Of a stretch of DNA of 64,000 nucleotides, positions 15,679-37,450 are shown one piece after another (the stretch's first letter is position 1; every line of letters begins with the position of its first letter). The stretch covers positions 248,001-312,000 of the forward strand of contig NZ_KI912443.1 in the NCBI RefSeq assembly GCF_000518485.1, in the 5' to 3' direction. Source of the stretch: Olleya marilimosa CAM030. GTDB lineage: Bacteria > Bacteroidota > Bacteroidia > Flavobacteriales > Flavobacteriaceae. The position numbers and the translations under genes are program-made. The notes beneath the pieces were generated by a model. The model was not told the origin of the DNA and made no database searches. It was given only the letters and a program-made list of their open reading frames with translations.

Positions 15679-15758
15679 GATTTGACGAAAGCGTCTAAGG
15701 AAGTTTACACTGCCTTTAGCATTTTTTAATGAGGTTGCAATCAGTCAAATCCGTCCTC
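15679..15758 (-). promoter_or_regulatory. SAM-II-type riboswitch in the metK leader
   Basis: On the minus strand the leader contains GATTTGACTGATTGCA, a CCTCATTAAAAAATGCTAAAGG segment split by the P1 strand CCTC, and the SAM-II hallmark GCTAAAGG at 15720-15713. This follows the order of the SAM-II (metA-motif) aptamer: GAUUU..., UUGCA, A-rich linker, GCUAAA. P1 here is a short GAGG (15758-15755)/CCTC pair with extra bases on the 5' side, so it is slightly degenerate. The aptamer's GATTTGAC can pair perfectly with GTCAAATC (15686-15679) near the start codon, a candidate switch helix. Assigned from recalled consensus; a covariance-model search would settle it. Confidence 0.75.
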
Positions 15759-15773
15759 TAATTTATTGAGCAG

Positions 15774-18650: not shown

Positions 18651-18803
18651 AGATTATAAATCTGTTCATATTTAATTTTAGCGAATTATTTTCTGTTTAA
18701 ATTAAAAAATGTTAATTTTTTAGAAAATTATTCTATTTTGTTTGTTTTTAAAATATATATTTTGCAATATTTGTATTCACAAAGTTCAAAAACTTACTGA
18801 AAT

Positions 18804-18923
18804 GTTATCAAGAAAGGTGGAGGGATTAGACCCATTGAAGCCTTAGCAACCCTTAGATTTACTAAGAAGGTGCTAAATTCTACTTAATTTTCGATTCATT
18901 AATCGATACATTGGATAGATAAC
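18804..18923 (+). promoter_or_regulatory. SAM-I (S-box) riboswitch of the methionine operon
   Basis: The aptamer core is unmistakable: GTTATCAAGAAAGGTGGAGGG, then ACCCATTGAAGCCTTAGCAACC, then AAGGTGCTAAATTCTACTT, closed by GGATAGATAAC. The outer helix P1 is GTTATC (18804-18809) with GATAAC (18918-18923). SAM binding stabilises P1 and should favour the terminator that follows, switching off metY-osmC-metX-metH-metF when SAM is plentiful. Confidence 0.95.
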
Positions 18924-18926
18924 TTA

Positions 18927-22902: not shown

Positions 22903-25616
22903 TGGACGACTGCGACTGTCAAAAATATTTAACACTTTCTGGTTTAGAACCCTTAATTGTAACACCAGAAAGTAATTTTATAAACGTAGGAGAACGTACT
23001 AATGTTACAGGTTCGCGTAAATTTTTAAGATTAATAAAAGAAGAAAAATACAACGAAGCTTTAGCTGTAGCTAGAGACCAAGTTGAAGGTGGTGCACAAA
23101 TTTTAGATGTCAACATGGACGAAGGGATGTTGGATGGCGTTTATGCTATGACTACTTTTTTAAATCTCATTGCTTCAGAGCCTGATATTTCCAGAATCCC
23201 TATAATGATTGATAGCTCTAAATGGGAAATTATTGAGGCTGGTTTAAAGGTGGTTCAAGGTAAATCTGTTGTAAATTCTATAAGTTTAAAAGAAGGTGAA
23301 ACCGAGTTTATACGTCAAGCTAAACTAGTAAAACGTTATGGAGCTGCTGTAATTGTAATGGCTTTTGATGAAAATGGTCAAGCAGATACGTATAATCGTA
23401 GAATAGAAATTTGTGAGCGATCTTATAAAATATTGGTTGACATTGTCAATTTTCCACCACAAGACATCATTTTTGATCCTAATATTTTTCCTGTTGCCAC
23501 AGGAATGGAAGAACATCGTAAAAATGCACTAGATTTTTTTAAGGCAACTGAGTGGATTAGACAAAACTTACCGTTTGCTAATGTGTCTGGTGGTGTAAGT
23601 AATGTGTCCTTTTCTTTTAGAGGAAACAATACTGTGCGTGAGGCTATGCATGCTTCGTTTTTGTTTCATGCCATAAAAAACGGAATGAATTTAGGTATTG
23701 TAAACCCAACGATGTTGGAGATTTATGATGAAATTGATAAAGAGTTACTGCAATGTGTTGAAGACGTTTTATTTGACAGACGTGAGGATGCTACTGAGCG
23801 TTTATTAGCGTTTGCCGAAACCGTAAAAGGAAATAAAAAAGAATCTACAGAAACGGTTCAAGAATGGAGAAATACCGAGTTGCAAAACAGGATTACACAT
23901 GCTTTAGTAAAAGGAATTGATGCATTTATAATTGAAGATGTTGAAGAAGCAAGACAATCTGTTTCAAGACCAATAGAGGTTATTGAAGGTCACTTGATGC
24001 AAGGTATGAGTGTGGTTGGAGATTTATTTGGAAGCGGAAAAATGTTTTTGCCACAAGTAGTAAAATCGGCTAGAGTCATGAAAAAAGCTGTAGCTTATTT
24101 ACAACCATTTATTGAGGCTGAAAAAGACGGAAAACAAGCCTTTGCTGGAAAAATTTTGATGGCAACCGTAAAAGGAGACGTCCATGATATTGGTAAAAAT
24201 ATTGTGAGTGTAGTTTTAGGTTGTAATAATTACCAGATTATAGATTTAGGTGTTATGGTTCCTCCAGAAAAAATAATTGATACTGCTATTAAAGAGCAGG
24301 TTGATATTATTGGTTTAAGTGGTTTAATTACACCTTCGTTAGACGAAATGGTTTATGTGTCTAAAGAAATGGAAAAGCAAAATCTTGATATTCCTTTGAT
24401 AATTGGAGGAGCAACCACATCTAAAGCACATACGTCTGTTAAAATAGCACCTCATTATAAAGATGCTGTGGTACATATTAATGATGCTTCAAGAGCAGTA
24501 ACAGTTGTTGGCGAATTATTAAATAAAAACAATGTTGTTTATAAAGAGCAGATTAGGGAAGAATACGATGTGTTTAGAGAAAAATTCTTAAACAGAACAA
24601 AACAAAAAGACTACATAAGTATTGAAGAGGCTAGAAAAAGAAAATATAAAATAGATTGGCAAACCTCTAAAATTGTGAAACCAAAACAATTAGGAATTCA
24701 AATAATTGAAGATTTTGATATTACAAAATTAGAAGCGTATATAGATTGGTCTCCATTTTTTAGAAGTTGGGATTTACATGGAAAATATCCAGATATTTTA
24801 ACCGATAGCGTAGTTGGAAGTCAAGCAACAGATTTGTTTATTGACGCTCAAGAATTATTAAAAAGAATTTTTGATGAAAAGCTATTAAAAGCAAAAGCCA
24901 TCTTTGGATTGTTTCCAGCAAATAGCATAAATGATGATGATATAGAGGTTTCTCTCAAAGAAGGTCATACTGAACTCGTTTCAGTATCTCATAATCATGA
25001 GGACCAACTAACCTTTTTAACCTTACGTCAACAATTAAAGAAAAGAGAAGGTGTGCCTAATCATGCGTTAGCAGATTTTATTGCTCCAAAAGAAACAGGA
25101 ATACAAGATTATATTGGTGCATTTTGCGTGTCTACAGGTTTTGGTACAGCCAAATTAGCTGAGCAGTTTGAAGCTGATAACGACGATTATAATTCGATAA
25201 TGATTAAAGCGTTAGCAGATAGATTAGCCGAAGCTTTTGCAGAATATCTACATAAAGAAGTGAGAACAAAACATTGGGCTTATGCACAAGATGAAAGTTT
25301 AACTAACCAAGAATTAATTAAGGAAAACTATAAAGGCATTCGTCCAGCTCCTGGTTATCCTGCGTGTCCAGATCATTTAGAAAAGCAAACCATCTGGAAG
25401 CTATTAAATGTGGAAGAAAATATTGATGTAAAACTTACCGAAAGTCTTGCTATGTGGCCTGCAGCAAGTGTTAGTGGCTATTATTTTGGTAATCCTGAGG
25501 CTAAGTATTTTGGCTTAGGAAAAATTAAGGAAGATCAATTATTAGATTATTCAAAACGAAAAAATATTAGCATAGCGGAAGCTACCAAATGGCTAAACCC
25601 AAATTTAGCAGATTAG
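22902..25616 (+). CDS. metH: methionine synthase, folate/cobalamin/reactivation modules (C-terminal part of split MetH)
   Basis: 904 residues covering the rest of cobalamin-dependent methionine synthase. In order: pterin-binding barrel ([28 protein letters not shown]), the cap helices, the B12 domain with [10 protein letters not shown] (the His that replaces the lower axial ligand) and [13 protein letters not shown], and the SAM-dependent reactivation domain with [12 protein letters not shown] and [14 protein letters not shown]. Residues 687-697 ([11 protein letters not shown]) come from a palindromic repeat inserted in frame within the reactivation domain. Requires cobalamin. Followed within two bases by dispersed repeat copy B. 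Confidence 0.96.
24967..24987 (+). repeat. palindromic repeat inserted within metH
   Basis: ATACTGAA (24967-24974), loop CTCGT, TTCAGTAT (24980-24987): an 8-bp perfect hairpin inside a block (GTCATACTGAACTCG... ATCTCAT) that resembles a repeat common between genes of Bacteroidetes, usually seen as variants of GTCATGCTGAACTTGTTTCAGCATCTC. Here it is read through in frame as [10 protein letters not shown]. Compared with E. coli MetH, the segment between DDIE and LRQQ is about nine residues longer. Confidence 0.65.
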
Positions 25617-25617
25617 T

Positions 25618-25734
25618 GCGTTAGCGATTGATGTGGCATCCTTTTTACGTCAGTTTGAGTAATACGACGTTAGGAGTATTGTACGAGAACAAGTAAAAAG
25701 ATATAACGGAAAGCGCGACCCTTGTGGTAACGCC
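25618..25734 (+). repeat. dispersed intergenic repeat, copy B (117 bp)
   Basis: Starts two bases after the metH stop codon. Inverted ends GCGTTA (25618-25623) and TAACGC (25728-25733). Conserved inner blocks GCGATTGATG and GCGCGACCCTTGTGG. The middle contains an ACGTC (25649-25653) / GACGT hairpin. It fills nearly all of the metH-metF gap and would be part of the operon mRNA. Confidence 0.7.
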
Positions 25735-32301: not shown

Positions 32302-33195
32302 CTAGCTGGTTAATTCTCTAAATAAACTTTCTAAGCTTGCATTTTTTTGATTTAGTTGTAAAATCTTTAACTGATTATCATGTGCAAAGTCAAAGACATG
32401 ACTACGCATATCTTCAGAGGTTTCAAAAGTAATTTCGTAAATAAAATCATGTGTATTTTTTACTTTTTTAGCATTTGGTAATCTAAGTAAAAAAGCATCT
32501 TCTACTCTGTAGTCAAACTCGACAACAACAATTTGTGCTTGTCCATCGCGTAAGTCTTTTAGTTTTTTATTGGCAACAATTTCACCTTTATTAATAATAA
32601 TTACACGATCACACATAGCTTCAACTTCTTGCATAATATGTGTAGATAAAAATACAGTTTTATCTTTTCCTAAATTTTTAATTAGGTTTCTAATATCAAT
32701 TAATTGGTTTGGGTCTAAACCGGTTGTAGGTTCATCTAAAATTAAAACCTCTGGATTATGTAGTAACGCATTTGCAAGTCCAACACGCTGTCTGTAACCT
32801 TTACTTAGTTGTCCAATAGTTTTGTGTGCTTCTGGTGTTAATCCCGTTAATTTTATGACCTCTTCAATACGTGATTTGTCTACTTTATAGACATTAGCAT
32901 TAAAACTTAAATATTCTCTTACATACTGTTCTAAATACAAAGGATTGTGTTCAGGTAAATAACCTACACTTTTTTGTACATTTTTTGTGTCAGTTAAAAT
33001 ATGATGTCCATTAACTTCCGCATCGCCTGATGTAGGATTGATGTAAGTAGTTAAGATTTTCATCATTGTAGATTTTCCTGCGCCATTAGGACCCAAAAAA
33101 CCAACAATTTCAGGACGATTAATTTCAAATGAAATATTATTTAAAGCCTTCTGCGAGCCATAAACTTTAGTGATGTTTTCTACTTTAATTGACAT
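32302..33195 (-). CDS. gldA: gliding motility ABC transporter ATP-binding protein GldA
   Basis: 297 residues: Walker A GFLGPNGAGKSTMMK, ABC signature QLSKGYRQRVGLANALL, Walker B VLILDEPTTGLDP, His switch LSTHIMQ, then a C-terminal extension characteristic of GldA. Sequence features (YLPEHNPLYLEQYVREYLSFNA) agree with Flavobacterium GldA, which with GldF and GldG forms an ABC transporter needed for gliding; gldF and gldG are not adjacent here. A TATTTTTG element at 33219-33212 on the minus strand could be its -7 box. Confidence 0.88.
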   Translation of the reverse strand: MSIKVENITKVYGSQKALNNISFEINRPEIVGFLGPNGAGKSTMMKILTTYINPTSGDAEVNGHHILTDTKNVQKSVGYLPEHNPLYLEQYVREYLSFNANVYKVDKSRIEEVIKLTGLTPEAHKTIGQLSKGYRQRVGLANALLHNPEVLILDEPTTGLDPNQLIDIRNLIKNLGKDKTVFLSTHIMQEVEAMCDRVIIINKGEIVANKKLKDLRDGQAQIVVVEFDYRVEDAFLLRLPNAKKVKNTHDFIYEITFETSEDMRSHVFDFAHDNQLKILQLNQKNASLESLFRELTS

Positions 33196-33300
33196 GGATA
33201 TAATCTTTACTCAAAAATAGACATTCTGTAATTTATACCATAGATTATTAATAAATCTTTAAATATTTACTAAAAAGCACAAAAATAGGTGCTTAGTGTT

Positions 33301-33329
33301 TTGTTATATCATTTTATTATTTACTTTAG
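33301..33329 (+). promoter_or_regulatory. promoter of the aromatic operon leader
   Basis: TTG (33301-33303), 18 nt, TACTTTAG (33322-33329), seven of eight matches to TAnnTTTG. Predicted start near 33333, 13 nt before the leader peptide ATG. The 105 bp between this and gldA (33196-33300) show no other feature apart from the possible gldA promoter. Confidence 0.5.
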
Positions 33330-33345
33330 CAATATTATTACAAAC

Positions 33346-33423
33346 ATGAGCACAATAAACAATACATATTTTAGCTGGTATTATTTCTTTTTTAACAAAA
33401 GGAACGAGACGCTGTATATGTAA
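33346..33423 (+). CDS. aromatic-rich leader peptide (25 aa) of the pheA-tyrA operon attenuator
   Basis: ATG 33346 to TAA 33421-33423. The peptide starts MSTINNT, then has the block YFSWYYFFF (codons 8-16, 33367-33393) and ends NKRNETLYM: nine of 25 residues are Phe, Tyr or Trp, precisely the products of the genes that follow. A terminator lies just after the stop, and codons 20-22 contain CGAGAC, which is complementary to the terminator's first strand. This is the layout of ribosome-mediated attenuation. Too short for ordinary gene calling. Read directly from the sequence; translation not proven. Confidence 0.85.
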   Translation: MSTINNTYFSWYYFFFNKRNETLYM

Positions 33424-33455
33424 TTTAGCAACATATATTTTTAAAAAAAGTCTCG
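33405..33455 (+). promoter_or_regulatory. candidate antiterminator of the aromatic operon attenuator
   Basis: CGAGAC (33405-33410, in leader codons 20-22) can pair with GTCTCG (33450-33455, left arm of the terminator). Between them a TATATGT / ACATATA hairpin (33415-33437), which includes the leader stop codon, stacks the two arms together. A ribosome paused at the Tyr/Phe/Trp codons leaves CGAGAC free to form this structure; one that reaches the stop codon covers it, letting the terminator fold. Confidence 0.7.
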
Positions 33456-33476
33456 ATATATATCGAGACTTTTTTT
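33443..33476 (+). terminator. attenuator terminator upstream of pheA
   Basis: AAAAAAAGTCTCGATAT / ATATCGAGACTTTTTTT, a perfect inverted repeat followed by a T run, 31 bp before the pheA start and 20 bp after the leader peptide stop. There is no gene upstream on this strand that it could serve, which supports its role as an attenuator. Confidence 0.9.
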
Positions 33477-33506
33477 GTTTAAATAACTCAGTAAAAAACA
33501 AATAAT

Positions 33507-34334
33507 TTGATAAAAACAGTAGCCATACAAGGTATAAAAGGATCGTTTCATCACATTGTGTCTCAAAATTATTTTAAGACCAATATTAGTATTGTCCCTT
33601 TTATGTCTTTTGATCAAACGGTAGATAGTGTTCTTAAAAAGGAGACAGATGCAGCTATAATGGCTATTGAAAACTCAATTGCAGGATCTATTATTCCTAA
33701 TTATGCACTAATAGATACTAATAATTTGCATGTAGTAGGAGAGTATTATTTAGATATTCAACACAACTTGATGGCTTTGCCAAATCAAAAGATTGAGGAT
33801 ATTACAGAGGTGTATTCTCATCCTATGGCGTTATTACAATGTAAAGCCTTTTTTAAGCAATATCCTCATATTAAACTTATAGAAGATAAGGATACTGCTG
33901 AGGTTGCTGAGCGTATACATAAAAAACAATTAAACAACACAGGAGCTATTGCTAGTACTTTAGCTGCAGAAATATTTGAGTTAGATATTTTAGCAACAAG
34001 TATCCAGACTATAAAACATAACGAAACCCGTTTTGTAATTGTAAAACAGGATAATTCTGAAATCGCTGAAGCGGAAATAAATAAAGCATCTATCAAATTT
34101 GAATTAGATCATAAAAGAGGAAGTTTAGCAACCATTTTAAATGTTATGAGTGATTGCAAATTAAACTTAACAAAAATTCAGTCTTTACCAATAATTGAAA
34201 CCCCTTGGAAATATGCCTTTTTTGTAGATGTTACATTTCAGGATTATCAAGATTTTAAAAAAGCCAAATCTATAATGGATATTATGGCCACACATTTTAA
34301 GGTTATTGGTCAATATAAAAATGCGAAAATATAA
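33507..34334 (+). CDS. pheA: prephenate dehydratase
   Basis: Converts prephenate to phenylpyruvate for phenylalanine. 275 residues: catalytic domain with AIQGIKGSFHHIVSQNYF, AIMAIENSIAGSIIPNY and the Thr-Arg-Phe signature HNETRFVIV; then a C-terminal ACT domain (SIKFELDHKRGSLATILNVMSD...IQSLPI) for Phe feedback. It lacks a fused chorismate mutase, which is instead on the DAHP synthase of the same operon. Start is TTG at 33507; no ATG fits. Stop overlaps the next ATG (TAATG). Confidence 0.95.
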   Translation: MIKTVAIQGIKGSFHHIVSQNYFKTNISIVPFMSFDQTVDSVLKKETDAAIMAIENSIAGSIIPNYALIDTNNLHVVGEYYLDIQHNLMALPNQKIEDITEVYSHPMALLQCKAFFKQYPHIKLIEDKDTAEVAERIHKKQLNNTGAIASTLAAEIFELDILATSIQTIKHNETRFVIVKQDNSEIAEAEINKASIKFELDHKRGSLATILNVMSDCKLNLTKIQSLPIIETPWKYAFFVDVTFQDYQDFKKAKSIMDIMATHFKVIGQYKNAKI

Positions 34335-35473
34335 TGAAAGTAGCTAATAGATTACATAGTGTAGAGGAATACTACTTTTCTAAAAAATTAAAGGAGGTCA
34401 ATGCTTTAAAAGCAGCAGGAAAACCTATCATTAATTTAGGAATTGGAAGTCCAGATTTACAACCATCAAGCCAAGTTGTTGCAGCGTTAACAGCAGGTTT
34501 GTTAGATGCTAATGCACATAAGTATCAAAGTTATCAAGGATTACCAGAGTTTAGGCAAGCTATTTCAGAATTTTATAAAGCACATTATAACGTATCAATT
34601 AACCCAGATGCAGAAGTGTTACCATTAATGGGAAGCAAAGAGGGAATTATGCATATATCTATGGCTTTTTTAAATGAAGGTGATAGCGTATTAATTCCTA
34701 ATCCAGGATATCCAACGTATGCAGCTGTGACTAAATTAGTGCAAGCTAATCCTATCACTTATAATTTAGATCAAAGCAATAATTGGTTGCCTAATTTAGA
34801 GGAGATTGAAACCTTAGATTTAAGTAAAGTTAAATTAATGTGGATCAGTTATCCGCATATGCCAACAGGTGCTAAAGCGTTTAAAACGGATTTAAAAAAG
34901 TTAATCGATTTTGCTAAAAAGCATGATATTTTACTAGTAAATGATAATCCTTATAGTTTTATTTTAAATAATAATCCGTTAAGTATTTTAAATGTTGAAG
35001 GTGCAAAGGATGTTTGTTTGGAGCTAAATTCTCTAAGTAAAACTTTTAATATGGCTGGTTGGAGAGTTGGAATGGTTTTAGGAAGTCCAGACCATATAAA
35101 CGCAATTTTAAAAGTAAAAAGCAATATGGATTCTGGTATGTTTTACGGAATTCAAAAAGGTGCAATAGCAGCATTAAATAGTCAGCAAGATTGGTTTGAT
35201 AGTTTAAACAAAGTGTATACAACACGTCGTAAATTAGTTTGGCAGTTAGCGGATAAATTAAACTGTACCTATGATAAAGAAGCTTCAGGTTTATTTGTTT
35301 GGGCAAAAGCACCAGAAGGTTATAAATCAGAAACATTTATAGATACATTGTTACACGATAAAAGCCTATTTATAACACCAGGAACAGTGTTTGGAACACA
35401 AGGCGAAGGGTATGTAAGATTTTCGTTATGTGCAACGGAAGAACAAATAGAAGAAGCAATAGCAAGAGTATGA
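34334..35473 (+). CDS. class I/II aminotransferase of the aromatic operon
   Basis: 379-residue fold-type I PLP enzyme: INLGIGSPDLQPSS, KYQSYQGLPEFRQAI, PNPGYPTYAAV, SYPHMPTGAKA, VNDNPYSFIL, and the PLP lysine in LNSLSKTFNMAGWRVG. It sits between pheA and tyrA, so it most likely transaminates phenylpyruvate and hydroxyphenylpyruvate (or prephenate) to the aromatic amino acids. Translationally coupled on both sides by overlaps. Specificity is inferred from context. Confidence 0.88.
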   Translation: MKVANRLHSVEEYYFSKKLKEVNALKAAGKPIINLGIGSPDLQPSSQVVAALTAGLLDANAHKYQSYQGLPEFRQAISEFYKAHYNVSINPDAEVLPLMGSKEGIMHISMAFLNEGDSVLIPNPGYPTYAAVTKLVQANPITYNLDQSNNWLPNLEEIETLDLSKVKLMWISYPHMPTGAKAFKTDLKKLIDFAKKHDILLVNDNPYSFILNNNPLSILNVEGAKDVCLELNSLSKTFNMAGWRVGMVLGSPDHINAILKVKSNMDSGMFYGIQKGAIAALNSQQDWFDSLNKVYTTRRKLVWQLADKLNCTYDKEASGLFVWAKAPEGYKSETFIDTLLHDKSLFITPGTVFGTQGEGYVRFSLCATEEQIEEAIARV

Positions 35474-36324
35474 TACAAAATATATACATAATTGGTGTTG
35501 GATTAATTGGCGGTAGCTTGGCTTTGGACATAAAAAATAAACGTCCTGAAGTTACAGTTTATGGTATTGATAAATCCGAAGACCATATAAATCAAGCTTT
35601 AGAGCTTGGTGTTATTGATCATAAAGCCACTTTTGAAGATTTAGATAAGGCAGATTTAGTAGTACTAGCTATTCCTGTGGATGCTTCTGTTAGTGTTTTG
35701 CCTGATGTCCTTGATAAAATATCAGATTTTACGTTAGTTGCTGATGTTGGTTCGACTAAGTCTGATATCTGCAAAGTGGTAGAAAACCATAAAAGACGAC
35801 GTAATTTTTTAGCAATGCATCCTATTGCAGGAACCGAGTTTTCTGGACCAAAAGCAGCAATCAGAGATTTGTTTAATCAAAAGACAAATATTATTTGCGA
35901 AGTAGAAAAAACAGCCTTCAAGCTACAAGAAAAAGCAGTCGGTTTGTTTACAGAAATAGGAATGCGTATGCGTTACATGAATCCAGAATCTCATGATAAA
36001 CATATTGCTTATGTGTCGCATTTATCACATATTAGTGCATTTATGTTAGGTAAAACGGTTATTGAAAAAGAAAAGAATGAGCGTGATATTTTTGATATGG
36101 CTGGTTCAGGATTTGAAAGTACAGTAAGATTAGCAAAAAGTAGTCCAGCCATGTGGACACCAATTTTTAAACAGAATAAAACTAATGTAGTCGAAACATT
36201 AGAGGATTACATTGCTAATTTAACACAGTTTAAAAAGCTTATAGAAAACGATGATTTTGAAGGTGTCTTTAACGAAATGAAAGATACCAATTACATCAAA
36301 CAAATATTAAACGGAATACAATAA
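35470..36324 (+). CDS. tyrA: prephenate dehydrogenase
   Basis: Oxidatively decarboxylates prephenate to 4-hydroxyphenylpyruvate for tyrosine. 284 residues from ATG 35470 (MIQNIYIIGVGLIGGSLALDI), which overlaps the aminotransferase stop in ATGA; a longer reading from 35428 would add 14 unrelated residues. NAD-binding GVGLIGGS near residue 9, LAIPVDASV, VADVGSTKSDICK, FLAMHPIAGTEFSG with the substrate-binding His, and AYVSHLSHISAF. No ACT domain, so feedback probably comes through the attenuator. Confidence 0.95.
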   Translation: MIQNIYIIGVGLIGGSLALDIKNKRPEVTVYGIDKSEDHINQALELGVIDHKATFEDLDKADLVVLAIPVDASVSVLPDVLDKISDFTLVADVGSTKSDICKVVENHKRRRNFLAMHPIAGTEFSGPKAAIRDLFNQKTNIICEVEKTAFKLQEKAVGLFTEIGMRMRYMNPESHDKHIAYVSHLSHISAFMLGKTVIEKEKNERDIFDMAGSGFESTVRLAKSSPAMWTPIFKQNKTNVVETLEDYIANLTQFKKLIENDDFEGVFNEMKDTNYIKQILNGIQ

Positions 36325-36367: not shown

Positions 36368-37450
36368 ATGGAAAATAAAAAAGAAATGAGAAACTGGTTG
36401 GATGACATGAAGTTAGATCATCCATTAGTCATCGCTGGACCTTGTAGTGCAGAGACTGAAGAGCAAGTATTAAAAATAGCACACGAGCTAAAAGATACTG
36501 ATGTTAGCTATTTTAGAGCAGGTATATGGAAACCACGTACTAGACCAGGAATGTTTGAAGGTGTTGGTGCTTTAGGTTTAAATTGGCTTAAAAAAGTTAA
36601 AGAAGAAACAGGTATGAAAACCTGTACTGAAGTTGCAAATGCAGCACACGTAAAATTAGCTATCGAGAATGATGTTGATTTGCTTTGGATTGGAGCACGA
36701 TCTACAGTTAGTCCATTTATCATGCAAGAATTGGCAGACGCACTAGCAGGAACAGATAAAATTGTATTAGTTAAAAATCCAGTAAATCCAGATTTAGCGC
36801 TATGGTTAGGTGGTATTGAAAGATTATATACTGCAGGTATTAAAAACTTAGGAGCAATCCATAGAGGGTTTTCTACTTATGAAAAGACCATGTATAGAAA
36901 CATTCCAGAATGGCAAATTGCTATTGAGTTTCAAAACAGATTTCCTGATTTACCATTAATAAACGATCCGTCGCATATTACTGGAAAACGTGATATGGTT
37001 TTTGATGTCTCTCAAACAGCATTAGATTTAAATTTTGATGGGTTAATGATTGAAACTCATACAGATCCTGATAATGCATGGAGTGATGCAGCACAACAAG
37101 TAACACCTTCTGCTTTAATCCAGATGATGGTAGATTTAAAGATTAGAAAAGAATCTGATCCAGAAGCAGAATACAATCAAGAGTTAACTAACCTAAGAGC
37201 GCAAATAGATGTTGTGGATAATCAAATTATCGAAGCTTTAGGTAAACGTATGAAAATTGCTGATGGAATTGGAGGTCTTAAAAAACAGAAAAACGTTGCA
37301 GTTTTACAAAGCAAACGTTGGAACGAGATTTTAGGAAAAATGGTTTTAGAAGGTGAGTCTAAAGGATTGAGTGAAGAGTTTATCTTAAAAATGTTTAAGG
37401 CAATTCACCAAGAATCAATTAATCATCAAGAAAAAATTATAAAAGGATAA
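36368..37450 (+). CDS. bifunctional 3-deoxy-7-phosphoheptulonate synthase / chorismate mutase
   Basis: 360 residues, a fusion. The N-terminal part, to about residue 255, is a type I-beta (KDO8P-synthase-like) DAHP synthase: LVIAGPCSAETEEQ, YFRAGIWKPRTRPGMFEG, VLVKNPVNPD, LINDPSHITG, GLMIETHTDPDNAWSDAAQQVTP. The C-terminal part, from about residue 275, is an AroQ chorismate mutase: LTNLRAQIDVVDNQIIEALGKRMKIADGIGGLKK. It supplies both the entry and the branch-point reaction of the operon. Last gene before a terminator. Confidence 0.94.
   Translation: MENKKEMRNWLDDMKLDHPLVIAGPCSAETEEQVLKIAHELKDTDVSYFRAGIWKPRTRPGMFEGVGALGLNWLKKVKEETGMKTCTEVANAAHVKLAIENDVDLLWIGARSTVSPFIMQELADALAGTDKIVLVKNPVNPDLALWLGGIERLYTAGIKNLGAIHRGFSTYEKTMYRNIPEWQIAIEFQNRFPDLPLINDPSHITGKRDMVFDVSQTALDLNFDGLMIETHTDPDNAWSDAAQQVTPSALIQMMVDLKIRKESDPEAEYNQELTNLRAQIDVVDNQIIEALGKRMKIADGIGGLKKQKNVAVLQSKRWNEILGKMVLEGESKGLSEEFILKMFKAIHQESINHQEKIIKG

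Follow-up and report, generated by a model that had tools for sequence, protein, structure and literature searches.

Ribosome-mediated attenuation is mostly taught from Proteobacteria and, according to the established view, works only when the ribosome follows close behind RNA polymerase. In the classical pheL-pheA attenuator of E. coli, a Phe-rich leader peptide is followed by an intrinsic terminator and a mutually exclusive antiterminator, with the prephenate dehydratase gene downstream. Its Rfam family is Phe_leader (RF01859). The leader that precedes pheA in Olleya marilimosa CAM030 resembles the E. coli system in its Phe-rich leader, its terminator, its mutually exclusive antiterminator and the prephenate dehydratase gene behind them, and differs from it in having a mixed Tyr/Phe control block and a four-gene operon for Phe and Tyr. 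When the whole 64-kb window (the complete stretch of DNA that was analysed) and the loci L033, L082 and L143 were searched with cmscan, no Rfam family reached its curated score in the pheA leader.

Several elements of this kind have been described in other operons or organisms. Bacteroid-trp (RF01692) comes from the same phylum and is also a leader-peptide element of an amino-acid operon; it differs in serving tryptophan, in its sequence and in its operon, and it gave no match to the pheA leader. The available part of PMC2864571 (2010) lists it as the Bacteroid-trp motif, and its Rfam name is tryptophan peptide leader. In the available part of the F. psychrophilum transcriptome study (PMC9723704, 2021), transcribed structured 5' regions were flagged before pheA and hisG, leader-peptide attenuation was named for amino-acid operons, and the pheA element was reported to be conserved in other genera. 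Judged by that description, the F. psychrophilum pheA 5' element is very probably the same element as ours; in section 19 of that paper, unlike in the present analysis, the pheA element is described without a peptide, a pairing, a spacing or covariation. Two elements from other phyla, as far as the excerpts describing them go, belong to related pathways: the Leu/phe leader of Lactococcus lactis (RF01743), which had no match here, and the 5' element called the Actinobacteria pheA motif, which carries no Rfam number in the table that lists it. Short ORFs resembling leader peptides are mentioned for Bacteroides thetaiotaomicron in the available text of PMC7366714. The corresponding portion of PMC9413887 holds nothing on a pheA leader element, and the same is true of that of PMC8305728, on the his genes of Bacteroidota, where the word 'leader' is absent.

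A literature search of partial coverage, which took in the available part of PMC9723704, recognised no paper giving the anatomy or the coevolution of a flavobacterial pheA leader. The guess made in the initial annotation, that such an element is little described in this family, was roughly right, with the reservation that the pheA element had been flagged in 2021 (PMC9723704) and that Rfam contains a trp leader from Bacteroidetes. Novelty is limited by what was already known of the F. psychrophilum pheA and hisG 5' elements and of Bacteroid-trp; what is new here is the anatomy, the coevolution and the breadth of the pheA attenuator.

The pheA operon

The window corresponds to C3:248001-312000 of the 3.34-Mb genome, and the DNA is AT-rich (32% G+C). 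The genes around the leader are the following:

32302-33195, minus strand: gldA, divergent from the leader and pheA
33507-34334, plus strand: pheA, prephenate dehydratase, with a TTG start (best NCBIfam match 195.4 bits, cut-off 219)
34334-35473, plus strand: PLP aminotransferase, probably aromatic (the NCBIfam matches shown are all under their cut-offs)
35473-36324, plus strand: tyrA, prephenate dehydrogenase (above the curated cut-off)
36368-37450, plus strand: DAHP synthase fused to chorismate mutase (both domains matched, under their cut-offs)

Among the four operon genes, tyrA alone passed the curated cut-off of its NCBIfam profile, and the aromatic role of the aminotransferase is probable from its gene context. 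The genes behind the leader had been proposed beforehand to make prephenate, phenylalanine and tyrosine. The closest relatives of this pheA, among the best 80 of 231 matches, belong to Olleya and share at most 96% identity with it.

Leader ORF and candidate promoter

The leader lies between gldA and pheA, and its 5' part contains these elements:

33299-33303, plus strand: putative -33 promoter element, TTTTG, recognised by sequence and by the family promoter pattern
33322-33329, plus strand: putative -7 box, TACTTTAG, one mismatch from the consensus TAnnTTTG
33346-33423, plus strand: leader peptide ORF, MSTINNTYFSWYYFFFNKRNETLYM, with an ATG start, 25 codons and a TAA stop
33367-33393, plus strand: control codons YFSWYYFFF, codons 8-16 of the leader ORF

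Nine of the 25 codons are aromatic (Y8, F9, W11, Y12, Y13, F14, F15, F16 and Y24), giving a short ORF in which the codons of Phe and Tyr, the amino acids that the operon serves to make, are clustered. The length of the ORF, its nine aromatic residues and the position of the block at codons 8-16 were all confirmed in the sequence.

The Bacteroidetes-type -7 consensus TAnnTTTG was taken from the available part of the F. psychrophilum paper (PMC9723704). Of 193 distinct family elements, 124 carried the combined pattern TTG-N16-21-TAnnTT[TA]G 5' of the leader; a further 44 had the -7 box only and 25 had neither. Transcription would start at roughly 33335, leaving a 5' UTR of ~10 nt. An E. coli-type promoter scan did not include the leader promoter in its list. 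The promoter that had been proposed between gldA and pheA stands as a candidate pair of Bacteroidetes type and not as one listed by the E. coli-type scan. A weaker terminator-like hairpin is located at 33275-33294 (plus strand), immediately 5' of the leader promoter.

Terminator and antiterminator

The 3' part of the leader contains the strands that would form the alternative RNA structures, numbered here as regions 2, 3 and 4:

33384-33404, plus strand: possible 1:2 (pause) hairpin, in which Phe codons are paired with the codons that follow (-3.4 kcal/mol, z -2.4)
33405-33410, plus strand: region 2, CGAGAC, 5' strand of the antiterminator, complementary to region 3
33414-33421 with 33431-33438, plus strand: helix nested in the antiterminator (predicted fold)
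33443-33476, plus strand: intrinsic terminator, AAAAAAA-GTCTCGAT-ATAT-ATCGAGAC-TTTTTTT, recognised by sequence and fold
33450-33455, plus strand: region 3, GTCTCG, 5' arm of the terminator
33464-33469, plus strand: region 4, CGAGAC, 3' arm of the terminator

The terminator begins 19 nt past the leader stop codon and precedes pheA (33507); its predicted fold has -17.4 kcal/mol and a z of -7.6. By sequence and fold, an intrinsic terminator is thus found between the leader ORF and the first gene, as had been claimed. Since gldA is divergent, this terminator does not serve gldA. A generic terminator scan did not detect it at 33443-33476, probably because the stem continues into the T tract.

Region 2 overlaps codons 20-22, running from the third base of codon 20 as far as the second base of codon 22, and its complementarity to GTCTCG, pointed out in the initial annotation, is indeed present; the pairing coevolves in relatives (see below). 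The antiterminator is mutually exclusive with the terminator. The predicted fold of the antiterminator stretch 33401-33457 has -12.2 kcal/mol and a z of -3.3, and that of the whole 149-nt leader a z of -4.5. The hairpin at 33384-33404 stops short of region 2 in the predicted fold and leaves it unsequestered. Across the family this Phe-codon hairpin had a mean of -4.82 kcal/mol with its own tails, compared with -3.91 kcal/mol when tails were swapped between loci (lowest of 20 shuffles, -4.03) and with -3.33 kcal/mol when tails were shuffled (lowest, -3.62). It may pause RNA polymerase, although this is a guess.

Conservation of the leader in the family

An aromatic leader (6 or more aromatic residues within a stretch of 12) plus a terminator was found 5' of pheA in 200/205 family loci; the leader is kept and its aromatic codons are enriched across relatives. 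The 205 loci consist of 110 loci, the one studied here included and 80 of them being the best 80 of 231 matches, together with 95 more diverged regions. A pheA match was present in 178 family genomes, and the upstream region was read in 125 of them (30 loci and the 95 regions); some of the remaining 53 were covered by a covariance model search of 100 genomes. Five loci stand outside the 200. In L030 the leader is cut by the contig end, in L072 leader and terminator are both visible and were missed by the script, and in L165 the covariance model placed the element 344 nt upstream. In the other two, L199 and L205, of which L205 lies at the start of a contig, neither leader nor terminator was seen upstream of pheA.

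Among the best 80 of the 231 matches (L033-L112), an aromatic ORF was found upstream of pheA in 80/80 and was followed by a terminator, under a strict definition, in 70/80. Control windows of 450 nt were drawn from the loci of these 80 relatives, on both strands and with coding sequence included, and were scored for at least 7 aromatics in 12 residues; 20/2627 contained an aromatic ORF and 0/2627 an ORF followed by a terminator.

The covariance model of the element gave 77 matches in 76/100 family genomes. A total of 68 were upstream of a located pheA, 66 of these within 105 nt, and nine were unplaced, eight in genomes without a listed pheA position and one as a second match in G048. In genomes with a listed pheA the model matched 68/73; among the five misses, G092, G087 and G064 do carry the leader, and G023 and G035 correspond to L199 and L205.

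Outside the family, in other families of the same class, an aromatic ORF preceded 24/37 pheA genes and was accompanied by a terminator in 19/37, with 12/260 and 0/260, respectively, in class-level controls; the class search rested on a PF00800 match in only 44/158 genomes. No leader element was seen in L288, one further locus of the class, in five loci of the same order and another family, or in the 29 loci that scored best among other classes of the phylum. The loci from other classes, like those of the other operons described below, are the best-scoring ones returned and not random draws.

Coevolution of the antiterminator with the terminator arm

By a looser test, a complement to the terminator arm of the same locus was present in 195/200 family loci, compared with 114-130/200 in 30 permutations of the arms. 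One of the 5/200 loci without it (L034, which is also counted among the 200) is a case of a wrongly picked terminator, and it was excluded from the 192 rows used for Watson-Crick pairing and from the alignment set. In these 192 rows, at least 6 uninterrupted Watson-Crick pairs were formed with the own arm in 120/192, and with an arm from another class in 5.5 rows on average and in no more than 10 (20 draws). The arm classes (n=192) were GTCTCG (110), GTCCCG (34), ATCCTG (21), GTCCTG (15), GTTCCG (4) and others (8); with G-U pairs allowed, region 2 paired with its own arm in 98/110, 33/34, 21/21, 13/15, 4/4 and 5/8 of them, respectively.

A motif table that was blind to the own arm gave a nearly diagonal correspondence: GTCTCG went with GAGRY in 106/116, GTCCCG with GGGRC in 36/38, CCTG with AGG in 31/39 and TTCCG with CGGAA in 1/4, leaving 10/116, 2/38, 8/39 and 3/4 in off-diagonal cells, plus 3 unclassed. 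Small classes lag. Six Watson-Crick pairs with the own arm were found in 5/15 GTCCTG and 1/4 GTTCCG loci, compared with 7/15 and 3/4 when these loci were matched with the GTCCCG arm; in several of them region 2 suits GTCCCG better and pairs with its own arm through G-U. All these coevolution counts were made over related sequences and not along a tree, and they do not represent independent events. With a narrower region-2 motif, which excluded CGAGAC, 48/113 rows were fully paired, compared with 30 on average and 38 at most after permutation; this motif left 77/190 rows without a region 2 and was superseded by the 192-row Watson-Crick test.

Because the gapped alignment offsets region 2 by one base between classes, the covariation pair count was limited to the terminator. 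In 67 diverse sequences, 8/8 terminator pairs had changed on both sides, and 95.5% of the cells of the terminator alignment were paired compared with 86.1% after shuffling. Judged from these comparisons of sequences, the antiterminator strand is coevolving with the terminator arm.

Spacing between the control codons and region 2

The last four codons of the block are kept in order in the family, with Tyr, Phe, Phe and Phe in 159, 167, 175 and 168 of 192 elements, respectively. Region 2 starts 8-13 nt past the last block codon in 170/188 distinct elements, with a mode of 11 nt (87/188). Taking the leading edge of the ribosome to lie 10 nt beyond the A-site codon, region 2 would be free in 186/188 with the penultimate block codon in the A site, and under this strict footprint in only 142/188 with the very last one. 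A ribosome at the stop codon would, with the same footprint, cover at least half of region 2 in 187/188 and all of it in 154/188. Under the assumed footprint, region 2 would hence be exposed when the ribosome stalls on the control codons and covered when it terminates. In 12/188 elements the stop codon lies wholly before region 2, with spacings of 7-11 nt among those printed. Since region 2 is wholly past the stop in these elements, selection acts on the RNA strand and not on the peptide.

Proposed mechanism and alternative explanations

The elements of the leader, their conservation, the coevolution of the pairing and the spacing are established here. We consider it very likely, in support of the interpretation given in the initial annotation, that the pheA leader is a classical ribosome-mediated transcription attenuator, which would sense charged tRNA-Phe and tRNA-Tyr. 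That the leader is translated, that the ribosome stalls, that transcription terminates and that starvation changes the outcome is inferred from the sequence; the steps would be as follows. Transcription would start just 5' of the leader, and a ribosome would enter the leader ORF and follow RNA polymerase closely. With Phe or Tyr in short supply, the ribosome would stall in the WYYFFF block, with region 2 (CGAGAC) just past its leading edge and able to pair with region 3 (GTCTCG). This pairing would block the terminator and allow transcription of pheA and of the three genes behind it, which encode the aminotransferase, TyrA and the DAHP synthase/chorismate mutase. If Phe and Tyr were abundant, the ribosome would reach the stop codon and cover region 2, region 3 would then pair with region 4, and transcription would end.

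One alternative is that the product of the ORF is a functional small protein and that the terminator is incidental. The strong conservation of the aromatic core at the amino-acid level would be expected of such a protein, but the length and the C-terminus are variable, with the peptides of L088, L105, L106, L091 and L112 ending directly after the block, and the RNA strand downstream, which coevolves with the terminator, remains at a near-constant spacing from the block; we regard this explanation as highly improbable. Still less credit can be given to the idea that a ligand- or protein-binding 5' element (a riboswitch, a T-box or the site of an RNA-binding protein) controls the terminator and that the ORF is a by-product of AT-rich composition. 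DNA of 32% G+C does yield aromatic ORFs by chance, as the 20/2627 control windows indicate, but the Tyr-Phe-Phe-Phe order of the last four codons is maintained (159, 167, 175 and 168 of 192). Moreover, positions 33301-33509 gave no Rfam match, and the predicted 5' UTR would have little space for a sensor besides the ORF.

The hairpin might also be merely a constitutive terminator or insulator that holds the operon at low basal expression; it is indeed strong and perfect, and a T tract accompanies it. With gldA divergent, however, no gldA transcript arrives to be stopped, and this proposal leaves both the coevolving antiterminator and the spacing unexplained, which makes it extremely improbable as well. 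Ribosome-mediated attenuation is the reading that we retain.

Other amino-acid leaders in the genome

Leaders of this type, and one weak candidate (before thrA), were also found before other biosynthetic operons of the same genome:

L208, 5' of hisG: His leader, MNFIQLHHHHFHTCTQAS, plus terminator; no Rfam match
L209:1220-1344, 5' of trpE: Trp leader, MNTILNHTWWWNSRNSIFVN, plus terminator; match to Rfam RF01692 (Bacteroid-trp) with 52.7 bits, curated score 49
L211, 5' of ilvD: Ile/Val leader, MSKQVIIIISIISIVIISRSQGML, plus terminator
L272:989-1045, 5' of thrA: short Ile/Thr-rich ORF, MKKRHTIFTLIMTITLLG, behind which a weak hairpin and then a T run can be seen by eye

For his, trp and ilv, the locus of this genome and the 29 best-scoring others were compared, one his and one ilv locus being dropped because they had no anchor. 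By a strict test, leader plus terminator was present in 28/29 his, 29/30 trp and 11/29 ilv loci of the family, compared with 0/232, 0/240 and 1/340 of the respective controls. The ilv leader is the least uniform of the set and appears to be less uniform, or differently built, elsewhere. The short ORF before thrA is possibly a threonine leader. The presence of the his, trp and ilv leaders makes the pheA attenuator one of a set.

Other RNA elements were observed in the window. SAM riboswitches of two classes lie ~3 kb apart, RF00162 at 18802-18925 (plus strand) and RF01726 at 15706-15764 (minus strand), and a Flavo-1 RNA (RF01705) is located at 25603-25724 (plus strand).

Implications for gene expression in the Flavobacteriaceae

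On balance, we lean towards the view that amino-acid operons of the Flavobacteriaceae (Phe/Tyr, His, Trp and partly Ile/Val) are as a rule controlled by leader-peptide attenuation, and that the same holds for pheA in many other families of the class. Such attenuation would operate without a Shine-Dalgarno sequence and with a 5' UTR of ~10 bases, and would imply that the leading ribosome stays tightly coupled to RNA polymerase where genes begin. The breadth of the finding suggests that the family normally uses ribosome-mediated attenuation and that, as a consequence, ribosome and RNA polymerase are closely coupled there at gene starts. Transcription-translation coupling outside E. coli is debated, according to the available part of PMC7858274, and our literature search on this subject, of partial coverage, found no dedicated study for the phylum. 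Since attenuation needs a ribosome that follows closely, the conserved elements are ready reporters for this debate. A 5' element that had been noted only briefly is now worked out as a switch, with specified base pairs that can be mutated, and attenuation is seen to be widespread beyond the Proteobacteria, in a major lineage of marine and soil bacteria.
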